Positions 902 to 64,000 of a DNA stretch of 64,000 bases are shown here, in pieces; position 1 is the stretch's first letter; every line of letters starts with the position of its first letter. The stretch is taken from NCBI RefSeq assembly GCF_039555335.1, contig NC_092641.1:37720548-37784547 (forward strand). The letters run 5' to 3'. Origin of the DNA: Amphiura filiformis. Its lineage: Eukaryota; Echinodermata; Ophiuroidea; Amphilepidida; Amphiuridae. The translations under genes were made by a program, and so were the position numbers. The notes beneath the pieces were generated by a model, which had not been told where the DNA came from, made no database searches, and saw nothing but the letters and a program-made list of their open reading frames with translations.

Positions 902-1027
902 CATTTATCATATCTCCACACAGTTGACCTATATACCCAGCAGTACAAGTACATGTGAAACCTGAAGTTCCCTCATCTGCTGAACAAGAAGCTCCATTCA
1001 TACACATATTAGGTGAACAGGGGTTCA
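902..1027 (-). CDS. Exon: EGF-like domain 4 (last exon seen)
   Basis: Peptide NPCSPNMCMNGASC, SGFTCTCTAGYIGQLCGDMIN, six cysteines; near twin of EGF 3. Acceptor TTCAG, donor AATG|GTAAGA; phase 1 in and out. A good donor shows that the gene continues past the window's low end. Confidence 0.92.
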
Positions 1028-4000: not shown

Positions 4001-7000
4001 GTCATGTGTACATTCAGTCAAGGTACTCTCAAGGCCAGAACATCCAACATTCCTCAGCCATATCTGCCCAGATCCATATGGAGCTGTAAACGATGGCATA
4101 ACAGTACCAGATGCAAAGCCAAGCTGTCGACATGCAACTGAAGCACCATTGTTATTTGAATCAAAGGTATCATCACACACAGTCCCCCATTGACCATCAT
4201 GGTAGATCTCTAAACGTCCCGAACTAGAACTACCTGCAGCTAATTTTAAGTCTCCATCTGAAAACACTAAAAAGAAAATACAGAATGCGTTGTGATATCA
4301 TGTGTCCTAAAAACAACTTATTTTCTTATAATTAAAAAAAATCTACATTGATGTTATTGATTTTTTAAAGAAAATCTATATACCCTATCAGTATTTGTAC
4401 TAAATCACTGCACTTTTTTTGCACCCCATGTACTAGAGAAAGAATGCCAGCTTATTGGTTTGGTTCCCATGTTCATACAAGGGTGCCATACTGACATAAC
4501 ATCATAGGGGCATTGGGGGCATGTCCCCTCCGATCAAAGTGAACATTTTGAAAAAAGAAAACATTGAAAATTGGCTGGTGCCCCTCAATCAGACTTGGAG
4601 CACCCCAATACGCGGATTTAGGGTTTCTCTACGGAAGTCAATTTGTGCCGAAATTACTCTAAATGTCTTAAATTGGACAAATCGTCCTTCTTTTAATGCC
4701 CTGGTTGAATGGGGAATTAGGTTTGGCTGACAATAGAAAACACTCAAAAGAAGGACCAAAACAAGCTCAAATTAAGACCAAAATAAGCTGAAAGTTGGAT
4801 GAATGCACTTGAATGTTGGACCAGTCAATACATACAGTCACAATAGGAAGAAGTACTTTACTCAAGAGGGCACTCAAGTTAAGTGGTTGGAGTAAATTTG
4901 GCTTGTATTGGTCTTATTTTGAGCTAGTTTTGGAGTGGTTCAGCTTATTTTGGTCTTACTTTTGAGTGTTTTGGTCCTACTTTTGAGTGTTTTTTATTGT
5001 TAGCCAATGCTAATTCTCCATTCAAACTGGAAGATTAAAAGAAGGACGATTTTTCCAATTTAAGACACTGTGTGTTAGCATCATGGACTTCCTTGGTTAC
5101 AAGGTGTCCTTGTTTGCTCCGCTATTTTTGTGTGTGCCTCATCATTTGCAGGTCTTTACAAATGCCCACCCACCCCCACACCTCCCTACCCACACCCCAC
5201 ACACAAAAGAACCCATGTGTATAGTTGGGATCAAGCAAAATCAGTCAGAACTCGGCAATCCTAGTTTTGAGGTATGGGCCAAATAATGTGTGTAGGGGTG
5301 GATTGCAATATGGAAGGGAAAAATATTCTTCTTTCACATGAAAATGTTAAAAAAGTGACCTTTTTGATTGACCCCCATCCAACTTCGATAATTGTCAAAA
5401 AATTATTTAAAAAAGCTTGGATTTTGTGTTTTATTATGTCAAAGTTTGCTAAGTTTACTATGTATATATTCACATGTATTTTTGGTGTGCTAAAAAGACT
5501 CAATTAAAGTACTCTAACTTTAAACTTGATTTTCTCCATTTCTTTCTTTTGAATGTACTAGTGTTCAAATCGTTATAACTTTGTAACCAAAGGTTGTATT
5601 GACATGGGGTTTTCACTAATGTGGGGCTTTGAATACACTAAAAATGAAAATGTAAGAATCCCAAAATTGACCTGGGCCTACTTCAGACTGATTTTGCTTG
5701 ATCGCATCACACATATATATATCTATACTAACCTTTGGCTGTTTCACAATTCATGCCTCTATATTCAAACAAACATGTACACTGATAGCTGTTGTCATTC
5801 CTAACACAAGTGCCGCCATTTTGACATGGTGGTGGATAGCATGTATCTATCAACAAAAATAACACATATAAAGAAAACACATTTTAATGTATTTTAATAT
5901 TAAAATATGTTAATTTTGGTTGTTTATGTGAGCTAGTGAAGTAGACCATGCACTTTTCCATGGCATGTGTGACCATCCACCACGAATGAGCTGTAATGTC
6001 GGCAAAGCTTGTTTTATGGTCCATTTAATCTTTCAAAAAACAATACAAAAGAAAACAAAGGATTTCCTAACTCTTTTACTGATTCAATTTCAATATCCTG
6101 GCACGTAAGATAACAGAGATGAGATGATGGAGGTCCAACTTTTTGAACGACCCTCGTAAGTGATAAAAAGAACAACTTGATCTTTACCTCTAGTTTCACA
6201 ATGTGTTCCTATATATTCTGGAATACATGCACACTCATAGTTGTCACCATTCCTAACACAGGTGCCACTGTTTTGACATGGGTTTGAGTTGCATGGATCT
6301 ATAACAGAAGAAAACAATACATCAATTTAAATAATAAATAATGTGGAACTTGCATACATATAGGATCCACAATTTATTCCTCCCTAATGCTTTTTGAAAT
6401 AAATCGAAAAAACATTTTACGAAATGTAAAATGTAAATATTATGAGTATCCTTAATCCCATGTCTTCTTTAGGGGGAGTACCTTTAATAGCCCATTATGC
6501 AAATCAGGTATATTAATAAAGAAGAGAACTAAAATCGTATTAGATGTGGAATCTACATATAATGCTTATGCTCTTCTTATTCATACAAGCAAACTTGAGC
6601 CCTATGTGTGAGGTCAAACATATTGGGCTCTTCCTTTTAAAATCCATATTACCCTCTGGAAGATTTTAGAACTATTTTCTACTGGGGAATATGAATTTCA
6701 AATGGAATGAACACATTATGCAGCTCCATTTGAAATGTCCCCCCCCCCCTGTGGAAGATTTAGGTTGAACCTTTCTCAGAGGGTGTATGAAATTCAAATA
6801 GAGCTGCCTAACAATGGCTAGTTAAGATCACTATCAAGTATAGTTTGTCTTACCAGTAAACTTGAAGTACTCTGAGCTTGTGCTGCATTCAGGAATAGGT
6901 ATTCTTGCATTGTCCATTATGTTTCTTACATCACAGCTGTCATCAATACAGATCTTCAAAGCAAAGTCAATCTGAGCTGTACTCTCTGATGGCAGAATGT

Positions 7001-10000: not shown

Positions 10001-13000
10001 TGAGGTAAATCAATTTGAAAGTTACACTCCCTATGTGGAAAATTAATGTCATTTATTCCATAGGGGGTGTATGGATTTCAACTGGAATAGGGCATTGGCA
10101 CTGAGATGCTTCCTATTTATTTATTTATATCAGTCATTTTTATATAGTGCCTACTTACCATTAACAGTTGAGCCTGGACCATTACGCTTACACTGTTCAT
10201 CATTCAAATAGCTCTGGAAAATGAACAAAAAAAAAAAGAATTTGTTCATGATATGAAAAACACAAAAACCAAGTTAGAATGTGACATCTTTAATTCAATC
10301 ATGCAGACCCAGTTATAATAATTGTCATTCTAGCAAAGTAAGGACATTACAACATACTTTCAATCCAAGTTTTGTCATCACAACTTTTACAAGGTGTGAT
10401 GTCTTAACTTGGTTTAAAACCCAAGTTAAAATCTGTGATGCTTTAACTTGGTTTAAAACCCAAGTTAAAGCATTGCACCTTGTAAAAGGTATCACAAATT
10501 AAGCAGGTGCAACATGAAAGCTGTCATTGCCAACAAATATTAGCATTATTTTGTAAATTAAATCTAATACTGGAACTAAAATTTGCAACTAACTTTGCTA
10601 CGTTGCGTCCGAAAACTTTGGACTTTGTCAGGCATCTGATTGATGATGTTGTGATAATGTCAGGTGTTGTGACGTCAGACGGCGAGGAATGTCTCATAAT
10701 GCCGGGTCCCATGCGTGTGACAACTGAAAACGGAGTCCCCCTTTCTTGCTGATGGCGGGCTCCTCCACTCTCTCCCAAATTGATTCTCTGACTTCTTATT
10801 GCAGTGGTTGTAAACAGTGGAGTTCTGACGTCACAACACCTGACGTCATCACAACATCATCAATCAGATGCCTGACGAAGTCCAAAGTTTTCGGACGCAA
10901 CGTAGCAAATCGAGTTGCAAATTTTAGTTCCAGTATTAGATTTAATTTACAAAATAATGTTTTCAACTACTGGATGAATAATCTACACCAAGAAATATTA
11001 GCACTGATTACATCATCAGAACTTCAACATAAAAACATCAGTCATTGAACATAACAATTTACACCCAGATGACCTGATCAAGTTTAAGCATCACAGCTTT
11101 ACTACATTAACCAAGGTAGACCATAAAAACTTACATCAACATTAATTAAGTTTAAGTATTACAACTTTACCAGATAAACAAAGTTTAAATATAAAAACTT
11201 ACATTAAAACCAAGTTTAAGCACCAAAACTCAATATATAACCCAGGTTTGAACATAAATACTTACATTCAAATCCAGTTTAAGCATGACAACTTCAACAG
11301 CAGATTGTCCAATCTTTCCTCCAAGTTGCTGTACAAATCCTGCCACAGACCCATCACCAGGCAACTGATAATCATCAGCATCAAAGCTACATACAGGGAG
11401 ATGTAGCTGAATTGATTCCAGGATGGGACTATTGGTGCAAACACCATCTATACAAAGGCGAATACCAAGACTTACTCTGAAGACTTTGTCTGTTGGTACT
11501 TTGTTGATAGAATAACTGGAGAAGAAAGGTGAAACATGCATTAATGGAATTATATGCTACATTGTAAGATAGTCAGCCAAATACCTTACTGAGATGCCAA
11601 CAGTGGTGCAAATCCCATCTGTGCAAAGTTGGATTCAAAGGATTACTCTCAAATCTCTTTGGTACTGTGAAGTGAATCAAGAGTGAATACTAAAGTAAAA
11701 CAGACACAGGTGTTAAACAAAAGATGAAATTGAAAGGAGCTGAAAGGTCAGAAAGTTTCAGATAAAGACAGAGGGCAGCAGATCAAATCAGTAGAAGTAA
11801 AAGCAGAGGGTGATGGCACATCCGGGGCATATCCAACATTTAAAAAAAAATTCATTTTTATAAAATTAATCAAATTATCTATTTGCGACAATAGATTGGC
11901 CATGGAAAGATTGATAACAACATTACAGCATGTTTAGAAAGGTGAAATATGTGTTACAGGATTACAGGTTTTATTTGGTTTGGAGTGTCAAAGCTTCACA
12001 CTAAGATAATTAGCTGAATAATTTACAAGGTAGGAACATTGGTGTAAACCCCATACATCCAATGGGCTATTCCAGTTGAACTCCATACACCCCGTATGGA
12101 AGACATGACCTTAATCTTCCACCCAGGGAGTGTGAATTTCAAATGAGGTTACCTGGATGGATGATTCCATTTGAAATCTACACTCCCCGTGTGGAAGATT
12201 AAGGACATGTCTTTTATAGGGGGTGTAAGGATATCAACTGGAATAGCCCAATGTTCGGAACACTAATTACAGCATGTTTAGCTCGATCAACATGTAGCCA
12301 GATTCAACTTTTAGTAACAAAATATGTTACAGCTTCAAATAATTACAAGCAGGAAGATATTAATTCTGATTCATCTAATTAGTGATATAACATCCAGATT
12401 TTGTATGGACTGGCAATAATTACAGTTCAACTGGTGGGTTAAAATCTGTCTTGTGTATGTTTGTTGAAAATTTCATAAACAGTCCAACAAATTGGTCCAA
12501 TAATTAGAACAGTAACTCAACTTTTGATTGAGAACAATGCTTACCTTACAGTCAAGAAACTTCCAAGATTGAAATACTCTTGTGTTCCCCATGTGTAAGT
12601 GTACAATGTCTGGTTATGGCTCCAATTCTCAAACCCAATAGAAAACTGATAATTACATGGATCTAATACAATCCAAGCTTTGTGCATGAGCTTGGCAATC
12701 TTGTAGTCCATATTGATGCAACACTGAATGCCTAGGCATGTCTTATCCAGCACAGCACAACTGATTTGGTCTTTGTAATATGGTACATTGATGGTAGGAC
12801 AAGCTGTGAAACAAATATAAAAAGACACCTTGCTTAAGGGGGTACTACACCCATCACATTTTTTGTGGGTTTTTTGCATTTTGTGAAGAAATGAGAAAAA
12901 AACATTGGTCAAAGTGGTATGCATAATGAAGGGGCAAATCTTCTCGTTCTATTGGTGGTATTGATAATAATGTAGCTTACATGCTTTTAATTGTACAAGC

Positions 13001-16000: not shown

Positions 16001-19000
16001 GAGGAAGAAGAAAAAAGAATGGAAAGAAGGAAGTGGTGGCAGCAGCGGCAGTGCAAATAATCTTGATTGCATGCATCACAGCCAAAATGAAATCGCTGAA
16101 GAGGTAGGCATCCACATTCTTAAATTATAAATTCTTAAATCACTTACTTGAATAGTCTTCCTTTATAGCACACTCTTTGCCGCTAACATAATTCTGAAAA
16201 AAGTAAACAAACACAAATTGATCATACCAAATAAATTGTGAGATACTATTCAATACAATCTATTGTTTTATGTGAAACTGAAAAGCCTTGCAAATTTAAA
16301 GTCAATACATTGCTTTTTTCCAAACTTTAATATTCATCTATACATTTCTTCCATCTTTTTATACATTGCTTGTTTGTTTTTGTTGTATTTTATGTGGCAG
16401 CTCTAGCTTCCTCTCATTTCAATGCTAAGATCCTTTTTCCTTTAAACAGTTTCTCCTTGGCCTTTTATCAGAGCCTTTTTTACTTGTGATTCCATTTTTT
16501 CTTTTACCACCCAATGTTATAATCAGATTGCAGCGTTCAAGGAAGCAATGAAAGGGATTTTACAGAATGCATTGAGATGCACACTGTATTTTGAAACAAA
16601 TAAATCCAATATTTGCGCTGTGATATGTGATATGCTATACTTCTTTCAAAACTTACATTGAGATCAAGATGTGCAAACACCAGATCAATAGCAGTTTGCC
16701 CAGCACTATTTCCTAACTCTAACACAAAGCCTTGTACTGTTCCATCTCCAGGAAGGGTGACAGTGGTATTTTGATTACACAGTGGTATTGGTATCTGAGT
16801 CTTCTGCAGCACTGTGATGTCTGTTACATGGTCATCAAGGATGACATGTACAGTAAGGTCTACCTGGTAGGATTTCAATATGTCCAGCTTAGCAATTGTG
16901 AAACTGCATGGTGAAAAATATAAACATGCAATTATTAATTTTTAAATTTTAATTAAAATTAAAATTCTACAAATATGAGAAGTGTTACATGCACTTGATA
17001 TAAATTTGGCAAAAATCACATCTGGCTTTGACTCTTAATTACAGTGTACTATTAAAATTATGCTCAAATTCTTAGGTCTGCTTATAAATAGGCCATTTAG
17101 GCTTCAATATAGGATATAAGTCCAACTTTTGAGATATTTCGAAGAGCTATCTCAAGAACCACTGAACCAATACTAGGCTTTTTGTACTTGTTTTAATGCA
17201 TTTTTCATGCTGATTCCAAATATGGTCATAAAAATATACAATTCTGAAAAATAAAGAAAATTTAAAACTTGCCATCAGTACTACTAATCACAAGTGACAA
17301 ATGACTATGACACACTTTCTGATGACCTAGGTTTCATACCTGACATTCAGAGCTTCTCCAATACTCTTCATTTCCTCGACACCAAAGCTGTATGAAAAGA
17401 GGGATATATTGAGATACCAGGATCCTAGCCCTATAGACAACTGGTAATCACATGGGTCTAACAGGAACCATGCTCTGGTTGCTATGGTAACAATCTGTAC
17501 ATCCAGATTTAGGCAACATTGAACGCCAAGACATCGTGGGTCTAGTTGGCATGAAGCTATGTTGGGTAGAGTGCTGGTGTCAATATTAGCACAGTCTGGC
17601 ATAAAAAGAAACAAAATCATAATATGGTGATTAATGGTATGTTACATTCACAAATTAATTCTTTCTTTGAATTGTCTAAGGAATCCTTGACTGAACATGA
17701 GAGCAGTAAAATATTATTATTATTTTTTACAGTACCTCTGATATAATTCTGGTATAATTATCATGATTATATGATATACTCATCTGAGTAACCAATCAAA
17801 ATCTTTCTAAGCCTAATCAAACCAATGTAACCAATCAAAATAGCTAGAGGCTTCTTACGATATCTCTGATTGGCTCAATACATGATATAGTCCTCTCTAT
17901 AACCAATCAAAATAGTTCTTAGAGGCTGATCACATAATACTCTGGCAATAATTAAAATAATAAGAGAACCGTTGAACTTACTATCTCCAGTAATACTAGG
18001 CAATGAGCATGGATCCAATGACAAGAAATCCTGTTAAAAATGGAAATATATAAACACATATTGACATAATCATAAACTTCAAAGTTGTTACTAATAAGAG
18101 GAAGAATTTTACCATACTTTTTCCATAAATGTCGAAAGCTAGTGACTGGGTCAGTTGTAGAAAGAAGATCCACGATGCTGTGAAAAAAGTGAAGCGGAAG
18201 CGAAAGGAGAAATACCTTGAAGGATGGAGAAAGAGCCATCCAAGGATAACTTTTTCCATAGAAATTAACAAGGGTGTGATCCACCAAGATTAAGGGTTTA
18301 CCGTCGTAACTAAACCATTCGATCAAATTTTTTTTAAATTGACATATTTTGTACATTAATATGTGTAGATAACAAATCAGTAAAAAAAACAGGGGGTCCC
18401 GGACCTCACTTTTGAGCTACAGCCGTTTTAAAAGAGGTGTACATTTCCAAAAATCTCTGTACACCATCTATTGGACCCTACTGCCGTAAGCCTACTTTGG
18501 AGGAGGGGTCCAGGTCCGTTATCAGTGGAAGCACGCTGGCAAAATTTGGTTTGTAGGCCTACATGTTATATTTAAGCGGCCACTTTTCTTGCGCTCAGCA
18601 AACATTGTTTTCTTTATTTAGTGGCCCTGGTTATTGCCGTTGCGCAAAAATAGCGTTGACACGCACAAAACGCATCGTTCTTTGCGATGTCTGCAACGCA
18701 ACGCCGAGCACGACGCGGAGTACGCACGCGTTGAAAAGAGGCGCAATAGTCGAGTCGAATCGGGTGACGACGGAAAACCCTTAAGCAGAGATGTTATAAA
18801 CATGCAGCATACAATGCATTCTCTCCTGTTACTGTATAGCGGGGACATTTTTGCGGGGTTAAATTTTCGTGCTTTTTGCGGTCGAACAGGCAGCTGCGAA
18901 TTTTTATCACCGCGAAAATATTTATTACCCATAGTACCTAATGTGTATATATTTGGAAAAATGAATTAAACACTCACTAAAACTGTCCAGAATTGATAAA

Positions 19001-22000
19001 ATTGTGAAAAATTAACACATCAAAAATATCCCACAATAGAGAACTTACCTCCAAGCCAAAATTTTGTAGAACAGCCATGACAGCATCTTGGCCAGCCTGT
19101 CCTGCTATCTCCTTTACATATCCATTGATTGATCCATCACCAGGAAGGCTAACAGAACCATTTGTACTACACAATGGTATGGGAACTTTGACATCAAATA
19201 GTATAGGTACTGTGATGCAGGTACCATCTATGCAGATATTCAAGGATAGGTCCAAGTCAAACTCTTTAGTGACATCCAGTTTGGCAATGTTGTATCTGAA
19301 GCAAAAATTTGACTTTAAATGTTGTGAAATTGAATCTAAATATAAGAACAGCTCAATTTCCTGGCAATGGGTTATTCTCTTTGAAATCCACACTCCTCTG
19401 TGTATTGATGTAAATAAAGTCTCTGAGGGAGTATGAGTTCCAAATAGAGCTTCCATTTGAAATACTCATTCCAGTTTTGGAAGATATAGGTAAAGTCATA
19501 TACAGAGGGAATATGGGTTTCAAAATAATTAAATCTAGCCAATTCCATTTGAAAAACATATCCTCTCTGTGGAAGACATGCTTTAAATCTTCCAAAGGGG
19601 TATGGCAGATGATTTCATATGGAATAGCTAAAATTCTAAGTCAAACTTTTTCTAAGAATGTATGCTCTTGCATTTCTGGTAAGTCTGTAATTGAAGAGCT
19701 TTGTTGCAAAACCCCTACATCAACTTGAGCAATTTTGAGAATACATCAAAAAATTAGAAAAAATCACGGATATAAGGGGGTTTTCAATAGGAGCAGTTTT
19801 TGGCGGGATGCACATCCTACCCTAGCATCCCGCAGGATGCTCATCCTATACCAATCATCCCGCCAAAAACTGCTTTTGTTGCAAACCCCCATATATCAGT
19901 ACTTTTTTATGTTTTCTCAAAATTGCTCAAGTGGATGTAAGGGGTTTTGCAATAAAGCTCTTCAATTGTAAACTGACACAAATCAAGTAAATCAATGCTT
20001 TGCTAAGATAAACTTTATCTTGTTATAAGCTTACCTGAATTCAATTACATCCACTATCATTTCAGTCTTTTCCTGTCCCCAATCATATCCTACCAGAGTT
20101 ACATTCATTTCCCCCATTCCCAATCCAATATTGAGTGTAAACTGACATGGTTTAAGGATAATCCAAGCCTTAGTAAGCTTACCTGAATTCAATCACATCC
20201 CCTATCATTTCAGTCTTTTCCTGTCCAAAAGCATATTCTACCAATGTTATATTCAGTTCCCACATTCCTAATCCAATACTGAGTGTAAACTGACATGGAT
20301 CAAGGATAATCCAAGCCTTAGTTTGTAGCTTGGTGATGACTAAGTCTAGATCCACACAGCAGGTGACTCCTAAGCAAGTGGAGGCTGGGTAACATGACAG
20401 TGAGTTTGGGGTTAATGGTACGGTCACTGCTGGACAACCTATCAAAAGGAAAATGAAAAGGCAGAATTTACCTTGGGGCAAAGATATTTCACTGGCTAAT
20501 TAGTCTACCTTCCTTAAGCAATAAACCATGCAAAATGTTGCTCTTTTCACCATGTTACATCTGCTAAAGATTATGATTACAAGCTTACAAAAGCAAAATA
20601 CAAGTATAAAAGAAGTTTAAATTTGAATACATTTTTGGACTAATACAAGATGTAACTGTTGAGACTAACATTAAGGTTATCATTCAGATGACAGCCTATG
20701 TTCTTAAGTTTCTTAACAGGCAGAATTTAACCCTATGGGCAGGGCCGGATTTACCATAGGGCCAGATGGGCCCGGGCCCCCAAAGTTTGCCCTGTGCAGT
20801 GTGCATCTTCCATTTTAGCCGAAAAACACAAATTACAACATTTTTCACGCTTCAAGTGCACTGGCCTGTTTATAGCAAAATTCAGCTTCAATTTGGGCTA
20901 AAATAGTCTGAAATTGAATTTTTTTCACGCACTGAGCGAGCAAATGTCCTACTAAAATCTGAAACTTGACCACTTCAGTGCACAGTGCGTTTGGGGCCCT
21001 CTAAATTTTGGCCTGGCCCAGGGCCCCAAAAGGTAAATCCGGCCCTGCCTATGGGCACTGTGATCTATTGCCATTTGGTCTAATACCATTTTGTCTGATA
21101 CCCATTCAGTCTGTGTAAAACTAACCAGACAGGATAATTACTACTTAAGTCTAATAATCATAATTATAGTCTAAATGTCCATTTAGGTTTTTTTATAGTG
21201 ATAAATATAGCCAATACTAGCCTCATCATGCATCAACGTACATCTTTGATCAACTTATCACGCCCTCTATGGCAATTCCTGTTGCCCATAAAAGGTAAGT
21301 TTGATGTGATGAGTTGCCAGTCTAATGAAACCACAAGTGTAGTAGTGAAACATCACTAAAACATAGGTAAAACACCTTTGTTTTTATTTCAAATCGTTGA
21401 AAATGAACAAAATCCATGGTCACTAAAAGTGGTTCATTTTGCCATGCTACATGTGAACTGTTTATGCAACCAAGGTTTTTATTTTTGAAATATTTACTGT
21501 TTATAAGTCATTCATGATCATCATTATTGGTCAATATCTACTTTGCAGCCCAATTGTGGTAGACAAGCACAACAAGTCAGTAATTCAACCGTTTTGGTTC
21601 GGTAAAGAACCTCAATGTATCCGACTCATACTAGACATGTCATACTTATTGGGTACTTACCTCCTGATGAAGGGGTGAGTAGATTGCCAACACAAGTGTC
21701 ACTGCTCAAGAATTGCTGGAAAATAAATGTGACAACAAACAACTTAAGGCATTGTATCTAAATCTTTATCTGCTCAAAAGAAACAACTATGAAGTTTAGC
21801 ATAGAGTCCGAAATTTTCTGTTTTACAAAAAACGGAAACAAATCATGGAATCAGAGGTACAACCCGAAAAAATGACATTTTTTGTATGACGTGACAAAAA
21901 TTGTTAAAAGATAAGAGAAATAAATGTTAAAAACAATCTTGAGTTGTGTGTGTCAATTTTTATGATTAAAAAATACTCTTTAAGAATACCGAAATAAATT

Positions 22001-46000: not shown

Positions 46001-49000
46001 CAAGACTTGGATAGATTCACATGTGCTGTCAATGCATAGGTTTACAGCCAGGCTGACTTTGACATCTTTTTCCACTTTGTCTATGGTGTAGCTGAAAGAT
46101 TGAAAAAAAAAAAGCATTTATTTTTGGATGTATTTTAAACACAGGTAGGATTTTTGAACCTGACCGTTAGTAGGGCAATTTTGGGGGCTATTTTTGAAAT
46201 GAAAGGGAAATACAAGGTATTTTTTTCATGAAGGTTGTATGATCTAAATTCATAGTATAGATACAACACTCTACATCATGTGCATCCCTTTAAAACTGAT
46301 ATAAAACACTCATGGCAGAGTACAGCATTGGTAGCCCTACCAGATATCACCCTGTTATTAATATACAAAGCTTTGAAAGCTGTCATCATTAGAGATGGTA
46401 GGCCATTCAAGATAACTCAATCACTATAGCAGTTGCTTTTAAGTTTTAAAAACCCCAGAGGTTTTTTTTCACTGACAATTTGCTTCTAATAAACACCCCC
46501 TTTTATAATATTGCATGCCCCTGGGCCATTTATTACAGACAATACAGTTAGGTGTTTTTCAAATTAGATGCAATAATTACCTGAATTCCACAGCATTTCC
46601 AAAACTCAGTTGTCTTGTTGATCCCCAGTCATAGTCAATCAATGTAATATTTAATGACCATTGTCCAAAGGCTATTTCCATCACAAACTCACAAGGGTTA
46701 ATTAATATTGATGCTCTCAGATATATCTTTGTGACCTTTAGGTCAAGGGTCACACAACAACTTATACCCAGGCATTTATCTGATACAGTACAGGTCAAGA
46801 TGTCAGAAATGGCTGGAGGCTTGATGAGTGGACATGCTATATACATAAAGTTAAAATCAGAAAAAGATGTTATCAATTAACTGCTATGTGATGTTTGTTG
46901 ATTAGACAAGTACATTTAGCTTTTGGGAGAAAAATATCACTTTTTTCTTTCGCTTTCATTTTCTATGTTTTTAGTGAGATTTTGTTCATTTTCACAAAGT
47001 TCATGATCAAACAAACCAAGTATTGAAGTTACATCAAAGTCACTTCATTTTCATAAAGTACCTTCAGTGTCGATCACACAGAATTTATCAATTCAAAAAG
47101 GCGTCTAATGACCATGGACAGCGCCATAGCCAGACCACTGCTCAATACCGAGTGATCACAATATATACAAAAAAACAGGAATTTTAAGAACAAAATTGGT
47201 GTGTAAAATTATTAGTTTGGATGAATGAGATTTTATCATGTTTGCAAAACTAAATTAAGAAACTATTTGCAGATGGAAATAAAATCTATTGATGGAAACT
47301 CTTATTTTTTGCATTGGATCTGGCAAAGCTAACCATTCAAATGTCTGGCCTGGTGATCACTCGTGCATACATACTACAAGTGCTTCACTTCTTCGAGCTG
47401 TATGGTGCGATGTAATTGTCTGTTCAGTACGTAAGTCACATGCCGTAGATAATGTTTAGACTTGTACTATCTGATTCATATTAGTTTAATGCAATAATGT
47501 GTGATTTGCATAAAGAATAGATTCTTATTTAAATGTTTGGTTTCACTGATCACATTATCCTCTTTTAATTTTGAGCCAAACAAATGAGGTATAACGAAGA
47601 AAATAGCTGACAATTTTGATTCATTTCAACGCCTACAATGCGTGTTCTACGTTCGCCGATCGTATTACATGTAACTGCATGGAGCATCGCGCTTGACGTG
47701 TGTACATACATGCTGACATCCACGGTACATGTTAGCAAATACTTGATCGTTGAACTCTGAATAAAACCGGGTCGACCCGGTTTTAATACAAAAAGTTACA
47801 TTTTACTGTTATTAACGCACTTCAGGCTTAGTCTTTTACGTGGTATTTTAGTATACCACAGGGCATTATAATTATGCAAAAAGTAGAAAGCCGAGTAAAA
47901 TTGAGGGCGTCGCTGTGAAGCAAATCACACATTATGGCTCTAATGCTTTGCATGCTAGCCATAGGCTTTAATATAAAAAGTCCAAATTTTTAAAATGTCA
48001 AAAGCTATTTCAAGAACTACTGAACAAATACTAGGCTTGTTTGTACTGCATTGCATTTTTTATGTTGATTCCAAATATGGTCATGATGTAAAATTTTGAA
48101 ATTTTGACTTTGTAAAGAAAATTCTAAACTTGTCGAAAGGTAAATTTAGTGTTAAAGAAACATTTTGTAATTGACAGAATTGAGTCTGGACCTAATGGTA
48201 CTCACCATTTTCCTGTGGTGCTAGTTGACCATGCTCACATGGTGCATCACTGACAAAGTCCTGCATGTGTGCATATCAAGTTATTAACAAGAAATTATAA
48301 ATAATAAATAGTTATGATACCTGCAACAATAAGTATAAAAACAGTTGAAAACACATCACAATGATTCAGCAAACCACAATTATAGGAGACAAGAACATAT
48401 ACTATTTTGATCCTCTGCTCATGACCTCCTTTGAAGAAAGAAGTTCTAATTCTAATAAAAGTAAAATATAGTTAAGTCAAGTCTCTCACTCCAAAGCAAA
48501 TAGATGATTATAAGCAATGCTTTTAGCAAGCTACAAGTCCTTTGATGAAACTATCAGCATGGTTTGTTAACATTTAAAAAATGCATCCTATATCTTTTAA
48601 CTTTGTTTCTAACCAATGTGCTGCACTGACAATGAAAAAAAAAAATGAAGACAATAAGGTGTTTGACAGTATTTCGATAGTTGATATGACTCATGCCCAA
48701 CTGTTGTTTTAAAAATGTATTTTGGAACTGGAACTTAAGTGCCAGAGAAGCACACTCTGCCATTCTCTCAACACATGACCAGCTTACATGTTTCTTCAAA
48801 GTAGGTAAAGTAAAGGTAAAGGAGACGATCCTGTAAACAGTGATCAGAGTGCCCATCTCTCTTTCATTGGCGATTGGGCCAGACTCCTCCATGTAATGTT
48901 GCTATAGGGGGATCGCTACACCTCCTCCACAGCGAGTCTGTTAGCTTCCCAGCATTTAAGAATGCCGGTAACCATTTATACACCTGGGTAGAGAGGAGTA

Positions 49001-52000
49001 ATCGAGATAAAGTGCCTTACTTAAGGGCACAACACGATGGCGTTGCCGGGGCTCGAACCCGCAACCTTCTGATTATGAGTCGGAGCCCGTTCTGCTCGAC
49101 CAACGTGCTTCAAAGTTAACTGTCCAAATCTCTGCATTATCAACATGCATCATTATACAAGAATATAGTACTATATTGGTCTAACCATTCATTAATAGTA
49201 AAACTTGTTGGTAATATTAAACTTATTCATACCTCTAATCCAAGTTTCCTAAGCACTGCTTGTATAGCCTCCGCACCAACTTTGTTCCCAATAACTGTGG
49301 CAAAACCTGTGATAGTCCCATCCCCTGGTAGAGTGAATGATGCATTGGGGTTGCAAAATGGGATTGGGACCAGGGACTTGCTCAGTACTTCCATGTCTAG
49401 GCATTCATCATCAATGCAGAATGTTAGATCAAGATCAAACTCAAATGATTGTAGCTTGTCGTTCTTGTCAATGCTGAATCTGTTAAAACAATCAAGAGCC
49501 AAACGTTTTCAATCAATCAAAGAGAATAGTATGAAGAGAAAAATGATTTCTTTAATAATAGATAGAGAAAAGCAAGGGAGTGGGGACATGGCTATTCCAT
49601 TTATAACCCTCACTCCTGTGGAAACTTCTTCAATCAATCAAAGAGAATAGAATGAAGAGAAAAATGATTTATTTAATAATAGATAGAGTAAAGCAAGGGA
49701 GTGGGGACATGGCTATTCCATTTATAACCCGCACTCCTGTGCAAACTTTTGGAAGTTTGAATTTCAAATGAAATTAGCATATTTTCACTTCCTCTGTGGA
49801 ATATTTAGGCTGAATATTTCTCATAGGGTGCCTGAAATTCAAATGGAGCTACCTACCTAATATATTCATTCCATTTAAAATTCATACTACCCTGTGGAAG
49901 ATATTTCCAAAGTCTTCCCCAGAGGGAGTGCAGAGAGAAGGGCAAATGAGAGATATAGACATACTATAAAAGACAAAAATACAGTATAACATACAGCTGG
50001 AAACACGTACAGGCTAACAGGAAAAAGTAAACAAATTCAAATTTGCTTTACCTCTAGTTCATTAGTGACATAGGTGCATATTTTGCTGGTTGCAGTATTC
50101 AATTGTGTCTGTAATGTTAATCACGCAGAACATACAAGGGCAGTTTGTTGACATGCTTGTGCTAGAACCGTGAAAAGACATTAATGTTACTACTACATAA
50201 CTTGAGGTATACCAAAGTATAGTAGGGAGAGAGAGATGCAAGAGATATAATAAAGTGTGCATGAAGGAGAAGAAAGGAACAAAGTGGAATGGATAAGAAA
50301 GGAGGAAAGCGGTTAAAAGAGAGAAAATGATGATGATGATAATGATGATTCTGATGATGATGATTCTGATAACAGAAGTAATGACAACAAGTACGTACCC
50401 AATCTGAAGAGGTTCTCCAATTGACAATAACTCTAGTTTTCCCCAATCATAGCTGAATATACTGATATTATGATTCCACTCCCCCAACCCCATAGTGATC
50501 TCAAACTGACAAGGGTCCAGGATAAACCAGAACCGTGTGCTTAGAGTGGCCACTTTGATGTCCAGTTCTACACAGCAGTCAAATCCAAGACATTTCTCAT
50601 GGTGTGTGCACACCATGTTGCTAGGCAGCTTGGGTAATTTGATTTTCTTGGGGCAATCTGATGGAAGAAGGAATACATAAAACACCATAGCAGCAAATGT
50701 TGGTTAAAGGCATCAAAATGGGCATAGTCTTAGAGTATTTTATGCTGAGTAAATTTAGGATGGAAACCAGGCTTGATTATGCCATCTTTGGCTGCAATCT
50801 TAATTCTCAAAATGCTATTATTTGGCCATTTCCTGCTCTACTAAACTAATTATTGTAGTAAAAAGATACGAATCAACAGTTCACTCACAAACAGCAACAA
50901 ATAGCAGTGAGTAATATCAAATTAATTAATTTGAATTAAACAAATTTAGAACCAGATAACAGTGATGCACCATTCAATTTTATTATTGAAAGAGTTTTTT
51001 TTTCAATTAAAAGAGAATTAAAACACTGACCTCTGTGCCATCCATTCTGTACCACCATGGGTTTGTTGCAGGGATCCAAACTCACAAATTCCTACAATTT
51101 GTAAATAATTACAACACAAATGAATACAGCTTAACTTTTATTGTAGTAGACATTTTTGATTAAGCTTACTTTGACATCACACATACACTAATAACAAAAT
51201 AATTTAAAAAAATTAAGAACTACAAATGGCAACAAAGAATATAAGAAACCTATGCAGAATTATACATGTTGAGTATTGAAGTCTTGTTTTCCCCTGACTG
51301 GGTGTGATTTCTCTGGCTACAACATTTTACAAAGACCCTTCGCGCTGCTTACAGCATAAACTGGATTTTAGCGACTTGTTCCTGCAGAAAACCCTACAAT
51401 GAAGACTGAAAATTCCTATGAGCAGGCACAGATGGGTCTTCAAGATCCAAGAGATACACTAAAGCAGAGCTGTGTAAGTCTACTATGAGCAGGCACATGG
51501 GATGAGATCCGAGAGATACACTGGAGCAAACACTGGAGAACTCCTTCAACATCTGTTACCAGATCGTATGATTATTGATCCTCGTCTGCGGCATTCTGTC
51601 AGATCCCACGACCTAGCTGTCAAAATCTCAAGATCCAACCTGGTCAGCCACCAGAGGTCATTCCTTCCATCCTCAGCTCACCTTTGGAATGCTCTACCTG
51701 GTCCAATTATCTCTAACCAGAATCGGCTGAGCTTCAAACGGGGGTTAACAACTATCTTGGCGCTTAACTCCATCAGCGCTTATCATACCGATAGCAGCTG
51801 TTAATGCCTTGCATAGTTTAGACATAAAAAAAATAATAATAAATAAAAAAGATGTTAAGACCTTGTACCTTCAAATATGCATGCCACTACCTGATTTGAG
51901 GAGAACCAAAGTTTATTACTTCTGCACCTTGATATCTACTTACATCTATGCCCAGCTTCTGCATAACTGCTTCAATTGCTGCCCGCCCTGCATTCTTGCC

Positions 52001-55000
52001 GACCTGCTTGGCAAATTCTGTGATGCTTCCACCTGGAAAAATTATGACAAATAAGCTCAGAACAAGGAGATTAGACCATTACTACTGACTAAAAACTGAC
52101 TCATGTTTTTACCTTATCCAGACTTATAAGCTCAGAACAAAGAGATTAGTCCATTACTACTGACTAAAAACTGACTCATGTTTTTACCTTATCCAGACTT
52201 ATAAGCTCAGAACAAAGAGATTAGTCCATTACTACTGACTAAAAACTGACTCATGTTTTTACCTGATCTAGACTTATAAGCTCAGAACAAGGAGATTAGT
52301 CAGTTACAGTGCAAAATGTGCATAGAGGTTGTATTCATATGTCCCTAATGTTTGTCCTACATGTTTCTCATTTTAGTCCAGTCAAACACCAATCTTTAAT
52401 CTATTGTTGAAGAGGATAATAAGCTTATACTTATGTATAGAATTAGTAAAAAGCTTAGTCTTTGTTTGCTTTGGCTAAATCCTGTTCAAGTGGTGGGTTA
52501 ACCAACAATTAACAATGAGAGGACATTCCTGAACCTCGTTGAGTTGGGGATGATTTGAAGTGACCGCCAATTATGACCATTTGATATTTAATACCAGCAA
52601 TGTGGAAAAAGAGAAATAATGTAGTGCCAAAATACTGTACCCTTTTACTGAAGGAGCAAAGTTTAACAAGTTATAACTCCGCTTCTGGATATCGTTTGAA
52701 GTCAAATGATATATCATTGTAAAGCTTATGATATATATTTTCTAAACACGGAAGAAATCAAATCTGACCAGGGGCTGACTTTACAAGCGTTTCGACCTGG
52801 ACGTCACATATTATGTTGACATAAACAATTGTCATTGTCACCAATGGTTACTGTAGCCAAACTCCATCAATAAATGAATCATGAAAATACAGTACTCTAT
52901 CTTTTCAAGCTTACTTACCAGGAATGCTGAGTGAGAAGTTAGTATTGCAGAATGGAATAGGCACATTGGTTTTCTTAAGAATGTCAAGTGAGGGCAGCAG
53001 ACAAGTATCATCATCAGGTAAACACACAGAGAAGGCAAAATCAAGCACAAACACTTTCTCATCTGTCAGTTTGTCAATGATGTATGTTGCCTTTACTGCA
53101 GAACCAATATTTATGTACTGTCTTGAACCTGTGAGGAAAAAAACAAAAGAAATATATCATTCTCCCCTGGGTAGAGAGGCAAGTGGGGCAAAGCGCCTTG
53201 CCCAAACATGATAGCACTGCTGGGACTCAAACTCACAATCCTCCAATGGCAAGGCAGAACCCATACCGCTGCACCACCGTGTCCCCATGAAGAATGAAGA
53301 TGAATACATGAAGATGAAGAATACTCTTTTATTTTACACTTTCATGAAGATATTGTGTTTTGAAAAATTATCCTTTTTTGTATATCATTATTCAGATTTC
53401 TTCATCACAGTACACAGACAAGTGGGGTAGAATGTAATAGCTGCCTTTTGTGTAATACCTAATTGTTTGCAGCACAATCCCTCATTGTAAATTGCTGATA
53501 TTCTGTTTTACTTTCATGATGGCCTCTAATTAACTAACCCAAGATATTACTTTTACATGCAGTCTGGGTTCTTCATGTGTTATTAATTAAAAGTACATTT
53601 ATTGGAATGTTGTAAATGGCAGCTAGTACATTCAACTGCACTTACTCCCTATTCCAGAAAAATACAGAGCTAATTTTTGGGATCAAAAAAATATTATCCT
53701 GTTTTGCCAAATGAAACATAGCTAAATCCTAATCCTTTAGTTTGTCCTAACTGGCAATAAAAGTCCAGTTTTAATATTTGGTCAATTTCTTGAAAAAAAA
53801 AGCCAAAAACATGCATTTTCGCCATATTTTCTAACAATCGAGTCACAAAAAACAAAGACTTGGAACAAGTCTAAGCATTCCAAATCTTGAATATATGCTG
53901 AAATTTTGCTATAATTTTCACTTTTTTTGAGTTACTTAAATTAAATGATTGGTTATCAGAATGAAACGTTTTCCAAAAATTAGACTGCATAAACTGAAAT
54001 TAGTCTTGGTACAAGTCTTTGGGCTTTATTGTCACAGCATACAAAAAACACCTTAAAATACATGTTTTTGCCGGCCCTTATTTCCAAAAATTGACCAAAT
54101 ATTTAAATTTGACTTTTATTGCCAGTTAGGACTACCTAAAGGATTAGGATTTAGCTATGTTTTATTTGGAAAAACAGGATAATATATTTTTTTAATCCCA
54201 AAAAATTAGTTCTGTATTTTTCTGGAATAGGGAGGAGAATGGTTTTTCATTCCTCAGTCTGCCATTAGTGTGGACTACTCACCCCAGTGATACTCAAACA
54301 ATGTGAGATTCAGTGACCATTCTCCAAATCCAATAGACAGAACAAACTCACATGGGTCTAGTATCATCCATGCATTAGTTGTCAGGTTCACTATTTGTAG
54401 GTCTATTTGCATACAGCAGCGTACACCCAGGCAGTAGTCACTGAAGGCACAAGTTAATGTGTTTGCTAATGAGGGCAGACTCAACGAACAATCTGTAAAT
54501 TTGGAGAAAAAATGATGACACATGTACCTTTATGTAAAGAAATATGATCAGAGGTATTGTTGCAATCAGGGTTAGGATTATGATTACGGTATAGGGTTAA
54601 GAGCTCCACTGAAGAAATTTAGAGGTGAAATAAGCAACAAAGTCAGGGCTCAGAGTACAACACAAAAATGGGCAAAAAGTAGGAGTAGTTATCTAATTTT
54701 GCAGAGAGATTAGTGATGTGAAGCAGATCAAGATAGAAACTTTTCTAATATTAAATGAATTTTATTTTCTATGTAAAAGTAGTAAGGAAAACGGTGTTGC
54801 TATAATTAGTAATTTTCTATGGAAAACTAGGGCTTTGCCGAAAACTTAACTACAGTTGTTTTATTAGGGGATGTATTAATTTCTTGAAATGTTAATATTG
54901 GCTGCCTTCTAAAATAAGTATTTTGTGATTCTAGTATCTTCTGTTTATGGTATGTTTCAGTAGATATGCACAAAAGAAGCCCATTCTCAAAACTTCAGTT

Positions 55001-58000
55001 GATTCTAATTTTAAAGTTGTTCAGGATTATGTATATTATATAGGCACTGTAATACACATTTGATGAATACAAATACAATATTTTTGACAAGTGAATGAAT
55101 CCCTAAGAACTTTTTTGCACCCAAACATAAGCTAGTGGTATAAAATCTTAACATTTTTTTCAGAAAATTGGAGGGATGAGGCTATGTATCACAAAATACC
55201 CTTTAACATGCTTAAAGCAAATTTGAATTCACACTTGTTTTAGTTATTTTCGTTCACATTTCCTATATTCTAAACTCAATTGATACAATACACACAATAA
55301 CACAAAGATAAGCAAAGGAGCAACAAAAAGGCAGAGAAGCCCTGTCAACCTGAAACCTCATGGCAGTATGGTGGGTGTTGATGATAATAATATAAAGTGA
55401 CAACTTTAAAAACAAATTCCCATTGTAAATAATCACGTTGTAACTCACCGCCACGGCTATCAATTATTGCTTGTGTGTCGCATGTTTCATCTACAGACAC
55501 TTTATCACTCAATCCTATGAAATCAAACAGGGCTTTGATGGCCTCCTGAGCTGCATTTTTTCCAACTTTTTTGATGAACTCAGATGCAGAAAATCCACCT
55601 GCATAAGTATATATAAACATGATCAGGATTTGGCAACAATCAAAGGTGTAATTACACACTTTTATACTTGAGGGACAGCAAAATTCAGATTAACCCCATG
55701 AGAACTACCTGCCGATTGGTCAAAAAGAAGTTTTCATTATCAATTGGACCAATCAGCATTATTGTTAGAATAATTTCACCACACAAAAAATTGGGGTGAA
55801 TTATTTGCAAAGCTCCATTCTGATTGGTGATTAAAGCAAAGATATCATGCAATTGACCAATCAGAAGCAATGTTAGATCGGCAGATAGTGCTCAGGTGGT
55901 TAAAGGGATGTTAAAGGGATGTTTAAAAAAATCTATAACATGTTCTGGCAAAAAAAAATCTATAACATGTTCTGGCAAAAAAAATCTATAACATGTTCTG
56001 AAGTCACTTACATATGTTTGAAAAAGTGGGGAATTAAATACATTTTCTTTTCAGAAATGTTGACAAAATATGTATAAACTGAAAGTCTGTCTTTGAGATC
56101 ATGTTTGCTGCTGGACTTGTACAAAATTCCTTATCCCCGGCTGATAAAGAATTAAAGATTTGTCTTTCTTTACATGAAAGTGCAGTGTTTAGTTTATCCA
56201 TTGTAGGGGTTAGTTACTACATTAGTTAATGTCCTGCAGTTTGGAATTACCAGATTTCTGAATGTCCTTTTAACTATCATTACATTGGGCATGAGGTTTC
56301 AAAGATAGGGGTCCAGGGCCGGTCTGAGGGATTTTCAAGTGGCCTATGTAATACATATTTCTGGTGCCCCCTTTGAAGACAAGAATGCAACCCTTATGAT
56401 GGAGGCATAAAAAGAAGGTGTTCAATTTTTTTATAGATCACTAGATGAATCTTTAACCCCCTGAGCCCTGAGCACTACCTACCGATCTAACATTGCCTCT
56501 GATTGGTCAATTATATGATATCTTTATTTTAATCACCAATCAGAATGGAGTTTTGCAAATAATTCACCCTAATTTTTTGTGTGATGAAATTATTCTAACA
56601 ATGTTGCTGATTGGTCCAATTGATAATGAAAACTCCTTTTTGACCAATAGGCAGGTAGTTCTCATGGGGATAAGGCAAACTTGACAGTTACTCACCAGGC
56701 AGAGACAGAGAGAAGTTATTATTACATAATGGTATAGGAATCTTGTGTTCTTGTACAAGGTCTACATCAAACACACAATCCTGTGAGTCTGGACACACTT
56801 TGGCAGCCATATCAATAGCAAACACCTTCTCGTCATCTAGTTTATCAATGGCATAGTCAATAGTTATAGCACCAATATCCAGAGACTCTGACTGACCTGC
56901 AAAAGAAGTATGAGATGAGACAAATTATCTTTAAACAGAGAGCATGTGTATCAAATGGGTCCTTAAATAATAAAGTCTTGAAAGGCAAAAAACAGCACTA
57001 TTTTTAAATTGAAAAGCTGTAAAGATGACCAGTTTTAGGCCAACATATGTGATTTACAAGTTTGTGAATGTAAAAGACATCAAATTTCCATATTAAATTT
57101 TACTGGTAAATATTCCAAATATAGAGTTTTTCACAAATATGATCAAACACAAAATAACCAAGCTATAATCCATTTGGCTTCCTCGAGAGAGTGATGTCAG
57201 TACATTGTCAGAGTTACTATGTGCGTGTACACATGTACCACCTTTGACTGCGCAAATGAACACACCAGTTCTTTAAGTCAAACGCATGCCATTTAATACT
57301 ATGTGCATTGGAGCACACTGAAGTCGCTCACTTGAAAATGTTGTATTTCTCTGTGTGTGTAAAAAACTGTGTAATGTGTGTATCATACTCCATTAATGGT
57401 AGTCTTCCTACATGTATGGCTGTGCTAATGCTAGTTTCATACTTTCTGCTGCTTGCCACTGAGTGGCAGGATGCTTCATCATGCTGCATGAACTTATCTG
57501 CAAGTGGACAGCACGATGCTGAGGAGCAGCAACATGACTCTGACAGGCAATGTTGCTGCTCTGCCAAAAATTGTTTCTATTCTCATACATCAGAGTGGTG
57601 CCGCTCAACTCCTAGCAATCTGCCACTTTGGGCAAAGCAGTGGAGTGATCCATATATTGGCTTGTTGCTGGTCTCCAGTAGTGTTTTTGGTGCTACTGGG
57701 CAGTGAAGCAAAATCATTGTCAGAGCAGCAAAGCGGCAAATGGCAGGAAAGTATGAAACCAGCATAATGACCACCTGATGACAAATGTCTTATTTAGATT
57801 GTCCAAATTTGTACTACTGACTGATTACAGCTTCCTCTAACCACAGTTTACTTACCCCAATCATAGCTGAACAACAAGAATTCATATTTAAGACTCTCAA
57901 AACCAACAGCAAATGTAAATTGACATGGGTCAATCTCCAGGTAGGCCCGAAATGACCGATGGAATCCAGGCAATGTGATGGTCAAGCATGTTACTATACT

Positions 58001-61000
58001 AAGGCAGTTATCACCAAGTGTCACATAGGCTACTTTGGCTACGCTGGATGGCAGGGGTGACAGACTGAAGTTCCTCCCCAAAATGGAACAAGCTGTTGGA
58101 AAAACAAAACAAAACAAGTTTTTATTTGAAATTTTGATAATTCAAAGAGATTTAAGATATGATTTTAGGAATGCATTTTTATAATAATAACTAAATAAAT
58201 TGTCTTTATATAGTGCATTTTGCCAGAGGATTCAAATCACTGTAACTTCGCTGTCACTGGTGAATCATCAGAATTGGATTGCATCAACTGGACTGGTTGT
58301 AGCCGAACAGGTCAAATATATCTGCACTTAGATTGTAACACCCACCAATTGTCTGTGCAGATTCTCAAATTCCATTAGGGCAAGGAAGTTTTTGATAACC
58401 AAACAACTACTTTTTTGCTTTGTTTATCCTTCATTGTGTGAACAATGTGGCAAATAATATTGGTGATGGCTTCCAAAACCTAACTGTTGTGTCTGCCAGG
58501 GTGGAGGTGGTCAGCCAGCAATAAGGTTTAAAGCCATCTCTTATATCCACTTATCTCTTATACCAAGCAAACACAAAAATGTTTTTAAAACGTTATAAAC
58601 ATGTTATAAAACACATTGTGGTTTTTGTTAATAAGTTAAAAAAAATTAAAATGATGGGTTTTATTAAGGTCATGAAAACATTTTCAAATGTTTGATATGA
58701 AAAAGCATTATATCAACATTTTAAATGTTTTCAAGATGTTATTGTAAAATATTTTTGACATACATTTTTGGAAAATATTTGGTCAATACTTAATAACATT
58801 ATGAGAAGTCCTACACATACAACAGATTGTCAAGATCCTTCCAGCTATCACAGGTGGCCTTCCAAATTTTTTCAAAATTGGAATACTGGCTCTATATCTG
58901 TTATGTTACTTACATCGATCATCTAGAGCAATTCTGTCTTCCTTTTCCAATCTTGTGCCTGTCATCACTAGGCCTTGATTTGAAAGTAAAGTCTGGAGGG
59001 CGCTGTCTGTGAGACTTTGTGGCTTGGGACATGGTTCTCCTCCGTCTAACAGATTCTGTGTGAAACCATTTTAGATATTCAAACATTAATTAAGGCAAAT
59101 GGCATGGCAGGAGCCATATATTTCCATTTAAATGTAGTGCACTTTTTATATTTTTTTTACTATTAACACATTGATTTTATAGGAAATGAGTTAAGGAAGC
59201 CAATAATTTAACCCCATGAGAACTACCTGCCGATTGGCCAAAAAGAGGTTTTCATTTTTAATTGGACCAATCAGCAACATTGTTAGAATAATTTCACTGC
59301 GCAAACAAATTGGGGTGAATTATTTGCAAATCTCCATTCTGATTGGTGATTAAAATGAAGATATCATGTAATTGACCAATCAGAGGCAATGCTAGATCGG
59401 CAGGTAGTGCTCATGGAGTTACATATCCATAGGTCTTGCAGTTCTTAAAGGTAAAGCCAATAATATATCAAAACAAAAGTTTCAGTTGTTTCCCCCTGCT
59501 GAGAAAAATCATGCACACCTGAGCACCGAGAAATGACACCTACAGAATGTCTATTTTTAAGTGCCACCCTGAGTGGCAAAAACATAGACAATCCATTTAC
59601 CTGTGGCAGCTCTAATTCTTTAAGTGCCACCCTGAGTGCTGTTTCCACCCCAGATGACACTACATCTTGTCCAATCTCCTTGAGACGATTCTTGAGTGCT
59701 TCTCGACTGAAATACTCCGTTATGTTCACTAGGAACAATGAAAACAAGACATCAATTATGGCCAGAAGTTATCTTCAATCAATTCCTTTTGCATATTGGG
59801 CCATTTTTACAAGTTTTTGCCCGCTTAAGATAATCTCTTATATCCTTTGAGTAAGTATGGGAATTATATTTCAAACAAAAATGGGAAAGAAGTTCAACTT
59901 GATCAGGAAACTACCATAAAATCAAGAGGCGTAAACCACAGAGCAGTCAAATTGCATTCGACTACGGTGTGAGAGGTTGTGGGCCCGAACCCTGACAGTG
60001 GTTTTAATAGTATGCTCTCGTGGAAAATTGAGTTACCTTATGTTACTGCCCCCTCTCTGAGACTTACTTTTAGGCCATGTGATGGTGCCATTAGGATGAC
60101 ATATTGGTAATGCAATAGCAGAATCTGTTAGGATATCAACAAACACAGCACAGTCTTCTCGGTCTGTCTTAGAGCAAAATCCTACACCCATATTGACCAC
60201 TACTTCTTGTAAGCTCTTTTGAATACCAAATCTGCAACATATATAGCAAGATATTATAAATACCACATGGGTCTTCACAGCTCTTCACATTTTTATTGAA
60301 ACCTAGTCTATAACCCCGTAACCTAACAAATTACTAAACTAATTATTTTAGGTTTATTAATTTTCTTAGGGTGTTTTGTTTTGTCATAACTCACCGCAGT
60401 ACCAGCTCTGTATTTTCAACAAACGGCAGCTCAAATGGAATCACAACATCATTTTGAATTTCTGCAACAACATGATGGAAACATATTTGGCAATTAATTC
60501 AAGAAGATTTTTACAACAGATATCAATTTTGTTACATTATGTCGTTAAAAAAACACTAGTAATCCACTCCCAAAATGAGGACTGCAATATTTTAACGAGA
60601 CAAATCTCACAGTTTGCTAGTTTCTTGTCTCTGATGGCCAGCAGTATTGCCACAGGGGACAGATTTCCCCCCACATTAAAACTTTGCCTCCCCCTTCAGT
60701 TGACCCCAGTAAGATTTTTTTTAAATCCCAAAGGCCTAAAATCTAATATCACAGTGGCCAGCACCCAACCAGAAAAAATTCCCCCAAACAAGAAATTGTA
60801 AGTCACACACCACATATGGGATGCTGTCCCTAAAGCACATTGATTGGCAAAAATGTATGATACATAAGATCCACAAAATGAGAGGGAACTTGCAAATCTT
60901 TATATCGGAGTTATGGCCAGATTTATTATCTCTGCTTTAAAATGATTTTTCAACTTGCTTAGGTTGCTCCCTCACTTGGTGTTCAAAAGCCATCATTTCA

Positions 61001-63601: not shown

Positions 63602-64000
63602 AACAACATTTAATAGGGCGCCTTTCCAACTTGATCAAAGCGTCGTAACAACAAAGCAATAACAAAAACAGAGTCAATACGATGGATAAAAATGAGACTT
63701 CAAAACTTTCTTGAAACTAGGCAGTGTGCATGCCTCCCTGATGGTTCTTGGGAGGCTGTTGCAGAGTGTGGGTGCCGAAACATAAAACGATTTATCACCA
63801 ATGCGATTTTTCCCGACATGAGCAGTGAGAAGAGTAGTATCAGAAGATGAACGTGTCATGGGTCCTGTAGCAGGTTTGACTTTATGAGTGAGAAAGTTTG
63901 TGAGATAAACTGGTGCATTACCATAATGATCTATTAAAATGAATTTGGTCAATTTTTTCCAAACCAGATTTTTTGGCATATTATTTGTAATATTTACACA
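63602..64000 (-). mobile_element. LINE 3' end (RT C-terminus), runs off the window
   Basis: The minus frame includes NAPVYLTNFLTHKVKP, TRSSSDTTLL, IGDKSFYVSAPTLCNSLP and LPSFKKVLKSHF. This matches the RSSSD..LL...GDRSFS.AAP.LWNSLP..IR....SFK..LK.HLF ending of non-LTR retrotransposon ORF2. Trp of LWN is Cys here. It sits in the intron upstream of r0 C2. Confidence 0.88.

Follow-up and report, generated by a model that had tools for sequence, protein, structure and literature searches.

A ten-cysteine repeat array in the brittle star Amphiura filiformis as the likely tail of a large-lipid-transfer-like secreted protein

A window of 64,000 nucleotides of Amphiura filiformis DNA (the whole stretch analysed) most likely carries, judging from sequence comparison, the tail of an ancient bilaterian secreted protein of the large-lipid-transfer-like kind, whose presumed lipid head would lie beyond the window edge. 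The array of repeats that makes up this tail is common to giant lipoprotein-like proteins of bivalves (mussels, scallops and clams) and therefore seems to be an ancient relative, so far undescribed, of proteins that carry fat; the brittle-star head is out of view because the window ends inside the gene. We lean towards regarding the brittle-star protein as the counterpart of a bivalve protein composed of signal peptide, Vitellogenin_N, M23/LECT2-like segment, SAP domain and array, and as a circulating lipoprotein with multivalent binding or clotting properties. A lipid module very probably belongs to the brittle-star gene as well, located outside the window. The original prediction of a new stand-alone system is not supported, because bivalves share this kind of protein, with the array as its tail and an N-terminus that matches Vitellogenin_N.

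The minus strand holds two kinds of cysteine-rich open segment, B and C, between about 61.4 and 6.9 kb. Motif and stop-to-stop scans combined with splice-site scoring identified 14 B and 14 C exons, alternating from window position 61442 to 6854. An HMM trained on 55 repeats, all from outside the window, matched 33 stretches, each of them on the minus strand and in the right order; these cover every one of the exons (14/14 B and 14/14 C), so the predicted strict order of 14 B and 14 C modules is borne out; the stretches beyond the 28 B/C exons come from copies within C5, a duplicated half of B11 and exon C3b. Neither the reversed window nor any of 10 mononucleotide shuffles gave a match with the same HMM. 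The borders predicted for the array (6854..63528) also fit, with 6854 being the end of exon C14a and 63528 lying just upstream of the pre-SAP exon.

Together with the linkers, exon B1b and the pre-SAP exon, the array comprises 50 exons with AG/GT borders throughout, which together form a stop-free reading frame of 3,101 codons; because phase was one of the criteria in choosing linkers and small exons, the phase closure of this chain is not independent evidence. This length, and sequons that suit secretion, agree with the very large secreted-type protein that had been predicted. The public A. filiformis protein P0014 is identical to the exon model over residues 8-735, with the 12 exons from B11 through EGF1 connected in the same way, before the public model ends by read-through past EGF1. 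The exons after C14 encode EGF, EGF, SRCR, EGF and EGF, each entering and leaving in phase 1; both domain types score above their Pfam cut-offs, in support of the proposed EGF and SRCR cap. All features are listed in the table.

Table. Features of the array in window coordinates; repeats 1-14 are based on the HMM from outside the window together with splice borders and frame
Feature	Position	Strand	Details
Pre-SAP helical exon, phase 1->0	63344..63450	-	tblastn with 6/6 bivalve proteins tried (P0017-P0019, P0021-P0023; E 0.013 to 1.8e-5)
Linker D0 with SAP domain	62345..62483	-	Pfam SAP 35.2 bits, cut-off 23.9
Repeat 1	59601..61442	-	B1 61227-61442, B1b 60395-60461, C1a 60068-60231, C1b 59601-59728; in tree with bivalve first repeats
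Linker D1, SAP-like, phase 0->1	58914..59055	-	hit by the bivalve second SAP segment in tblastn (best E 4.5e-6)
Repeat 2	55449..58092	-	B2 57856-58092, C2a 56696-56896, C2b+D2 55449-55598; lacks Cys C2, C4
Repeat 3	51031..54492	-	B3 54283-54492, C3a 52919-53128, C3b 51944-52032, D3 51031-51091
Repeat 4	48206..50657	-	B4 50399-50657, C4 49233-49479, D4 48206-48260
Repeat 5	45083..46836	-	B5 46581-46836, C5 45434-46091 (four 141-bp copies), D5 45083-45134
Repeat 6	39813..43720	-	B6 43462-43720, C6 42200-42446, D6 39813-39867; lacks Cys C7-C8
Repeat 7	36810..39092	-	B7 38837-39092, C7 37343-37592, D7 36810-36864
Repeat 8	28226..31246	-	B8 30991-31246, C8 30028-30271, D8 28226-28277
Repeat 9	25207..26499	-	B9 26241-26499, C9+D9 25207-25508; lacks Cys C7-C8
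Repeat 10	21661..24163	-	B10 23905-24163, C10 22464-22713, D10 21661-21715
Repeat 11	17982..20438	-	B11 20183-20438, C11 19049-19295, D11 17982-18030; identical in P0014
Repeat 12	16148..17595	-	B12 17340-17595, C12 16657-16903, D12 16148-16193; lacks Cys C7-C8; identical in P0014
Repeat 13	10159..12803	-	B13 12545-12803, C13 11266-11515, D13 10159-10213; identical in P0014
Repeat 14, shortened	6854..8472	-	B14 8220-8472, C14a 6854-7011; no helix/D part found; identical in P0014
EGF1	6188..6298	-	Pfam EGF 28.4 bits, cut-off 21.5; joined to C14a in P0014
EGF2	5733..5846	-	Pfam EGF 28.8 bits; joined by phase only
SRCR domain	3940..4257	-	Pfam SRCR 94.1 bits, cut-off 26.1, E 7.2e-27; joined by phase only
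EGF3	2437..2550	-	Pfam EGF 31.4 bits; joined by phase only
EGF4	902..1027	-	Pfam EGF 29.2 bits; joined by phase only

The finer description of the repeats given in the original prediction holds with some qualifications. Its consensus words are looser than stated, with CLGxQCC exact in 5/14 repeats. One-cysteine D linkers are present for repeats 2-13 (D2 fused to C2b, D9 fused to C9) and the linker D1 is SAP-like, but a search of the window after C14 found none. The spliced length is 182-195 aa for repeats 2-13, close to the predicted 185 aa, except for repeat 5, which reaches 321 aa if every in-frame 141-bp copy is kept. The B exons, which enter in phase 1, run from phase 1 to 2 in repeats 4-14, the C exons from 2 to 0 in repeats 4-8 and 10-13, and the D exons from 0 to 1 in repeats 3-8 and 10-13; phase-1 splits are used in repeats 1-3 and 14. 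Identity to repeat 7 is 34-50 percent for the other 11 of the 12 aligned repeats.

Several tandem duplications were observed within the array. In exon C5 (window 45423-45988), four 141-bp copies lie in tandem and in frame, spanning the last beta-domain cysteine through the helix; the first is diverged, the last fits the family best by eye, and the GTAAG donor is kept in three of the four. At 20026-20322, a 148-bp tandem duplication puts the 3' half of exon B11 and its donor into the intron, where the half-copy is matched by the array HMM (34.8 bits). A 75-bp tandem repeat of 3.3 copies (52051-52301) lies immediately upstream of exon C3b.

The ten cysteine columns predicted for each repeat were upheld across 86 repeats, including the 14 of the window. 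When gapped cells are left out and alignment rows, which are not independent events, are counted, C2 and C4 are lost jointly in nine rows (one single loss), C7 and C8 in eight rows (one single loss; the pair is missing in window repeats 6, 9 and 12), and C6 and C9 in two rows (no single loss). These joint losses point to disulfides C2-C4, C6-C9 and C7-C8; by elimination, the remaining predicted pairs would be C3-C5 and C1-C10. Sequons are found within two columns of the NxTL site in 13/14 window repeats, and at a second site in 11/14; the same two sites carry sequons in 11/14 and 6/14 of the other Amphiura rows, and they are rarer in bivalve rows (15/58 and 17/58).

AlphaFold2 models of P0014 (13 sequences, mean pLDDT 72.3, pTM 0.46) and of P0002 (14 sequences, mean pLDDT 71.1, pTM 0.56) both contain nine strands per full repeat, including 4/4 repeats of P0014, where strand pLDDT is mostly 70-89. 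By position, the B exon supplies about six of the predicted strands and the C exon two, with one more running across the B/C border; one or two helices come next in each repeat except the shortened repeat 14. Since one strand crosses the exon border, and since C6 of the B exon and C9 of the C exon are lost together, B and C are most likely two exons of a single predicted nine-strand beta domain, and not the separate modules originally described.

No curated cut-off in Pfam or NCBIfam was reached by any of the 12 repeats scanned (2-4 and 6-14), and a profile of the 12 had no hit among PDB chains up to an E of 10, in line with the earlier statement that B and C match no known family. Structure searches also gave no strong match; the fold of the FAIM N-terminal domain (PDB 3mx7) was among the closest known systems considered, and a FAIM-like or lipocalin/FABP-like beta fold is a possible one for the single repeat. 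By sequence comparison, the repeat holds as a ten-cysteine domain uncatalogued in Pfam and NCBIfam. In the open-access literature, no paper describing this repeat family was found among the matches listed, as judged by title and abstract start, and the terms vitellogenin, SRCR and lipoprotein do not occur in the passages of PMC11310086 consulted.

Three word-based, length-bounded homologue searches returned 13, 4 and 12 proteins, the third scoring only the best 7,984 candidates by shared words. Of the resulting 27 relatives (two found twice), 11 are short proteins, 11 (P0017-P0027) are from the bivalves Mytilus, Mizuhopecten, Potamilus, Mercenaria and Ruditapes, and five are from Amphiura, namely P0014 from the window and four on another contig (78.6 Mb). 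The latter (P0001, P0002, P0015, P0016) form a similar array, several repeats of which pair with window repeats 7-10, 13 and 14. Array carriers in bivalves and the brittle star are proteins of about 1,500 to 3,500 residues; among the bivalve proteins, P0019 has the most repeat stretches by HMM (11), and P0026 (Mytilus galloprovincialis) contains two VWA stretches within its repeat array, an insertion in which it differs from the window.

In the best bivalve models, the order is Vitellogenin_N, M23/LECT2-like segment, SAP and array. Vitellogenin_N scored above the Pfam cut-off in three of the 11 bivalve proteins (P0018, P0020, P0022), some models being without an N-terminus; three of four N-terminal slices matched it at E<=1, the best being P0022 (40.1 bits, cut-off 24). 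When a profile of the N-terminal part (A6) was searched against PDB, the hits listed were nine helical-repeat proteins, designed or artificial, plus a cytochrome c555. A sequence match to lipovitellin or MTP was considered and rejected, as neither was listed, and the bivalve N-terminal module can thus be no more than a distant relative. For the segment that precedes SAP, M23 was matched at E<=1 in 6/6 slices (P0018, P0019, P0021, P0022, P0023, P0025; best E 1.3e-8), although under the Pfam cut-off wherever bits were given, and among PDB chains this segment matched SpoIIQ (E 0.00028) and LECT2 (E 0.0066). SAP is above the cut-off in eight of the 11 bivalve proteins, as it is in linker D0 of the window.

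The uncharacterised bivalve SAP/Vitellogenin-domain proteins resemble the window protein in the repeat domain and in the order SAP, repeat 1, SAP-like linker and repeat 2. They differ in that Pfam lists no EGF or SRCR in any of the 11, and in that their repeats beyond the second are separate expansions. With the large lipid transfer superfamily (vitellogenin, apoB/apolipophorin, MTP), the likeness consists of Vitellogenin_N above the cut-off in those three bivalve relatives, whereas the M23/LECT2-like segment, SAP and the disulfide-rich array set the relatives apart. According to PMC10799875, vitellogenin proper contains SP, LPD_N, DUF1943 and VWD; for the 11 bivalve proteins, neither DUF1943 nor VWD was among the matches at E<=0.1, and neither was listed for the window pieces scanned. 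Likeness to LECT2 and peptidase M23 is confined to the pre-SAP segment of the bivalve relatives, which is absent from the window. With SRCR proteins the window protein shares one SRCR domain, but this single copy follows another kind of array.

Searching the window with the bivalve proteins by tblastn recovered, in bivalve order, the pre-SAP helix (63448-63344), SAP (62480-62343), B1, C1a, C1b and D1; the bivalve arrangement is kept in the window from the pre-SAP helix as far as repeat 2. In a tree of 69 rows (incomplete repeats dropped, window repeat 1 without exon B1b, long branches on two Amphiura paralogue rows), window repeat 1 (Win_01) groups with six bivalve first repeats and a divergent Amphiura paralogue repeat, AfilC_04 (support 100/99), and window repeat 2 (Win_02) with six bivalve second repeats (96/64). 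Apart from these, the Amphiura repeats cluster together (23 rows, 97/84), as do the bivalve repeats (31 rows, 98/97). Cysteines C2 and C4 are missing alike in window repeat 2 and in eight bivalve rows taken as second repeats. Repeats 1 and 2 look orthologous between molluscs and an echinoderm, and the simplest reading is that a single ancestral protein with at least these two repeats predates the mollusc-echinoderm split, with separate expansions afterwards.

The Amphiura expansion shows a three-repeat period in its identities, which stands out in the paralogue P0015 but is weak in the window; the pattern was noticed first and tested after. Mean identity at multiples of three is 40.7 percent, versus 37.9 percent at other distances, in window repeats 3-14 (p 0.004; p 0.04 with all 14 repeats), and 44.3 versus 32.8 percent in the eight repeats of P0015 (p 0.001).

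The apparent orthology of repeats 1 and 2 makes the architecture traceable through bilaterian evolution, and the repeat adds a domain family and probably a branch to the superfamily that carries yolk and blood lipid. Members of the large lipid transfer superfamily form clots in some arthropods. In addition, the fragmented public gene models of the array can be mended in annotation.

In the proposed mechanism, the N-terminal module would fold in the ER and take up lipid, like vitellogenin or apoB; lipid loading by the head is expected from large lipid transfer proteins. Each repeat (B, C and D) would form a disulfide-braced beta domain of nine strands, after which come one or two short helices and then a linker with one cysteine, and the tail would become a long, N-glycosylated, protease-resistant rod with the EGF and SRCR domains at its far end. 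As a lipoprotein, the whole would then circulate in haemolymph or coelomic fluid and serve in multivalent binding or in clotting. The sequons, the cysteine pairs and the EGF and SRCR domains argue for secretion, and the protein is very probably secreted; a rod shape of the array is rather likely, and its humoral role in recognition or clotting as a multivalent rod is a tentative suggestion. The full scheme is speculative: the lipid module would have come to head a giant rod, secreted and built from a new ten-cysteine beta domain, which brittle stars (by copying blocks of three repeats) and bivalves lengthened independently; the protein would serve as a humoral opsonin or in clotting as a lipoprotein, and in the brittle star it would be tipped with EGF and SRCR. 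A role in adhesion or matrix is possible.

Alternatively, the protein might be a yolk or blood apolipoprotein in which the array serves as an extra lipid-binding beta surface, for cargo capacity and not for recognition. Vitellogenin_N in the bivalve relatives and strands that alternate amphipathically (judged by eye in the alignment) are consistent with such lipid storage, which we nevertheless consider unlikely, given that ten cysteines and two conserved sequons per repeat are better suited to a compact exposed domain than to a lipid-facing sheet, that an EGF/SRCR tail is present, and that DUF1943 and VWD are not listed. Slightly less probable is a matrix or biomineral protein, a rod deposited in shell, byssus or the brittle-star skeleton. 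The named relatives are bivalves and a brittle star, all calcifiers, and the long, disulfide-rich array with EGF and SRCR would suit this role, but the calcifier-only distribution may stem from the limits of the homologue searches, and no open-access paper was found linking vitellogenin and the SAP domain with shell matrix or mussel.

It is improbable that the SAP, array, EGF and SRCR exons form a separate receptor or adhesion gene whose lipid head was lost or never present. The lipid head is not within the window, the bivalve proteins are without the EGF tail, and EGF and SRCR are typical of recognition proteins; however, the bivalve order is kept from the pre-SAP helix through SAP and repeat 1 to the SAP-like linker, and the pre-SAP exon begins in phase 1 and is therefore not a first exon. 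Decayed or mis-joined exons, with the array not expressed as a single protein, are highly improbable despite the tandem duplications in C5 and beside B11 and the fragmentary public models, as 50 exons are stop-free with AG/GT borders, 12 are joined identically in P0014 and the cysteine columns are invariant.

Outside the array, scans of the window for RNA families and tRNAs found none. Finally, an open segment without a Pfam match was observed on the minus strand at 63677-64000, which resembles the end of a LINE reverse transcriptase.
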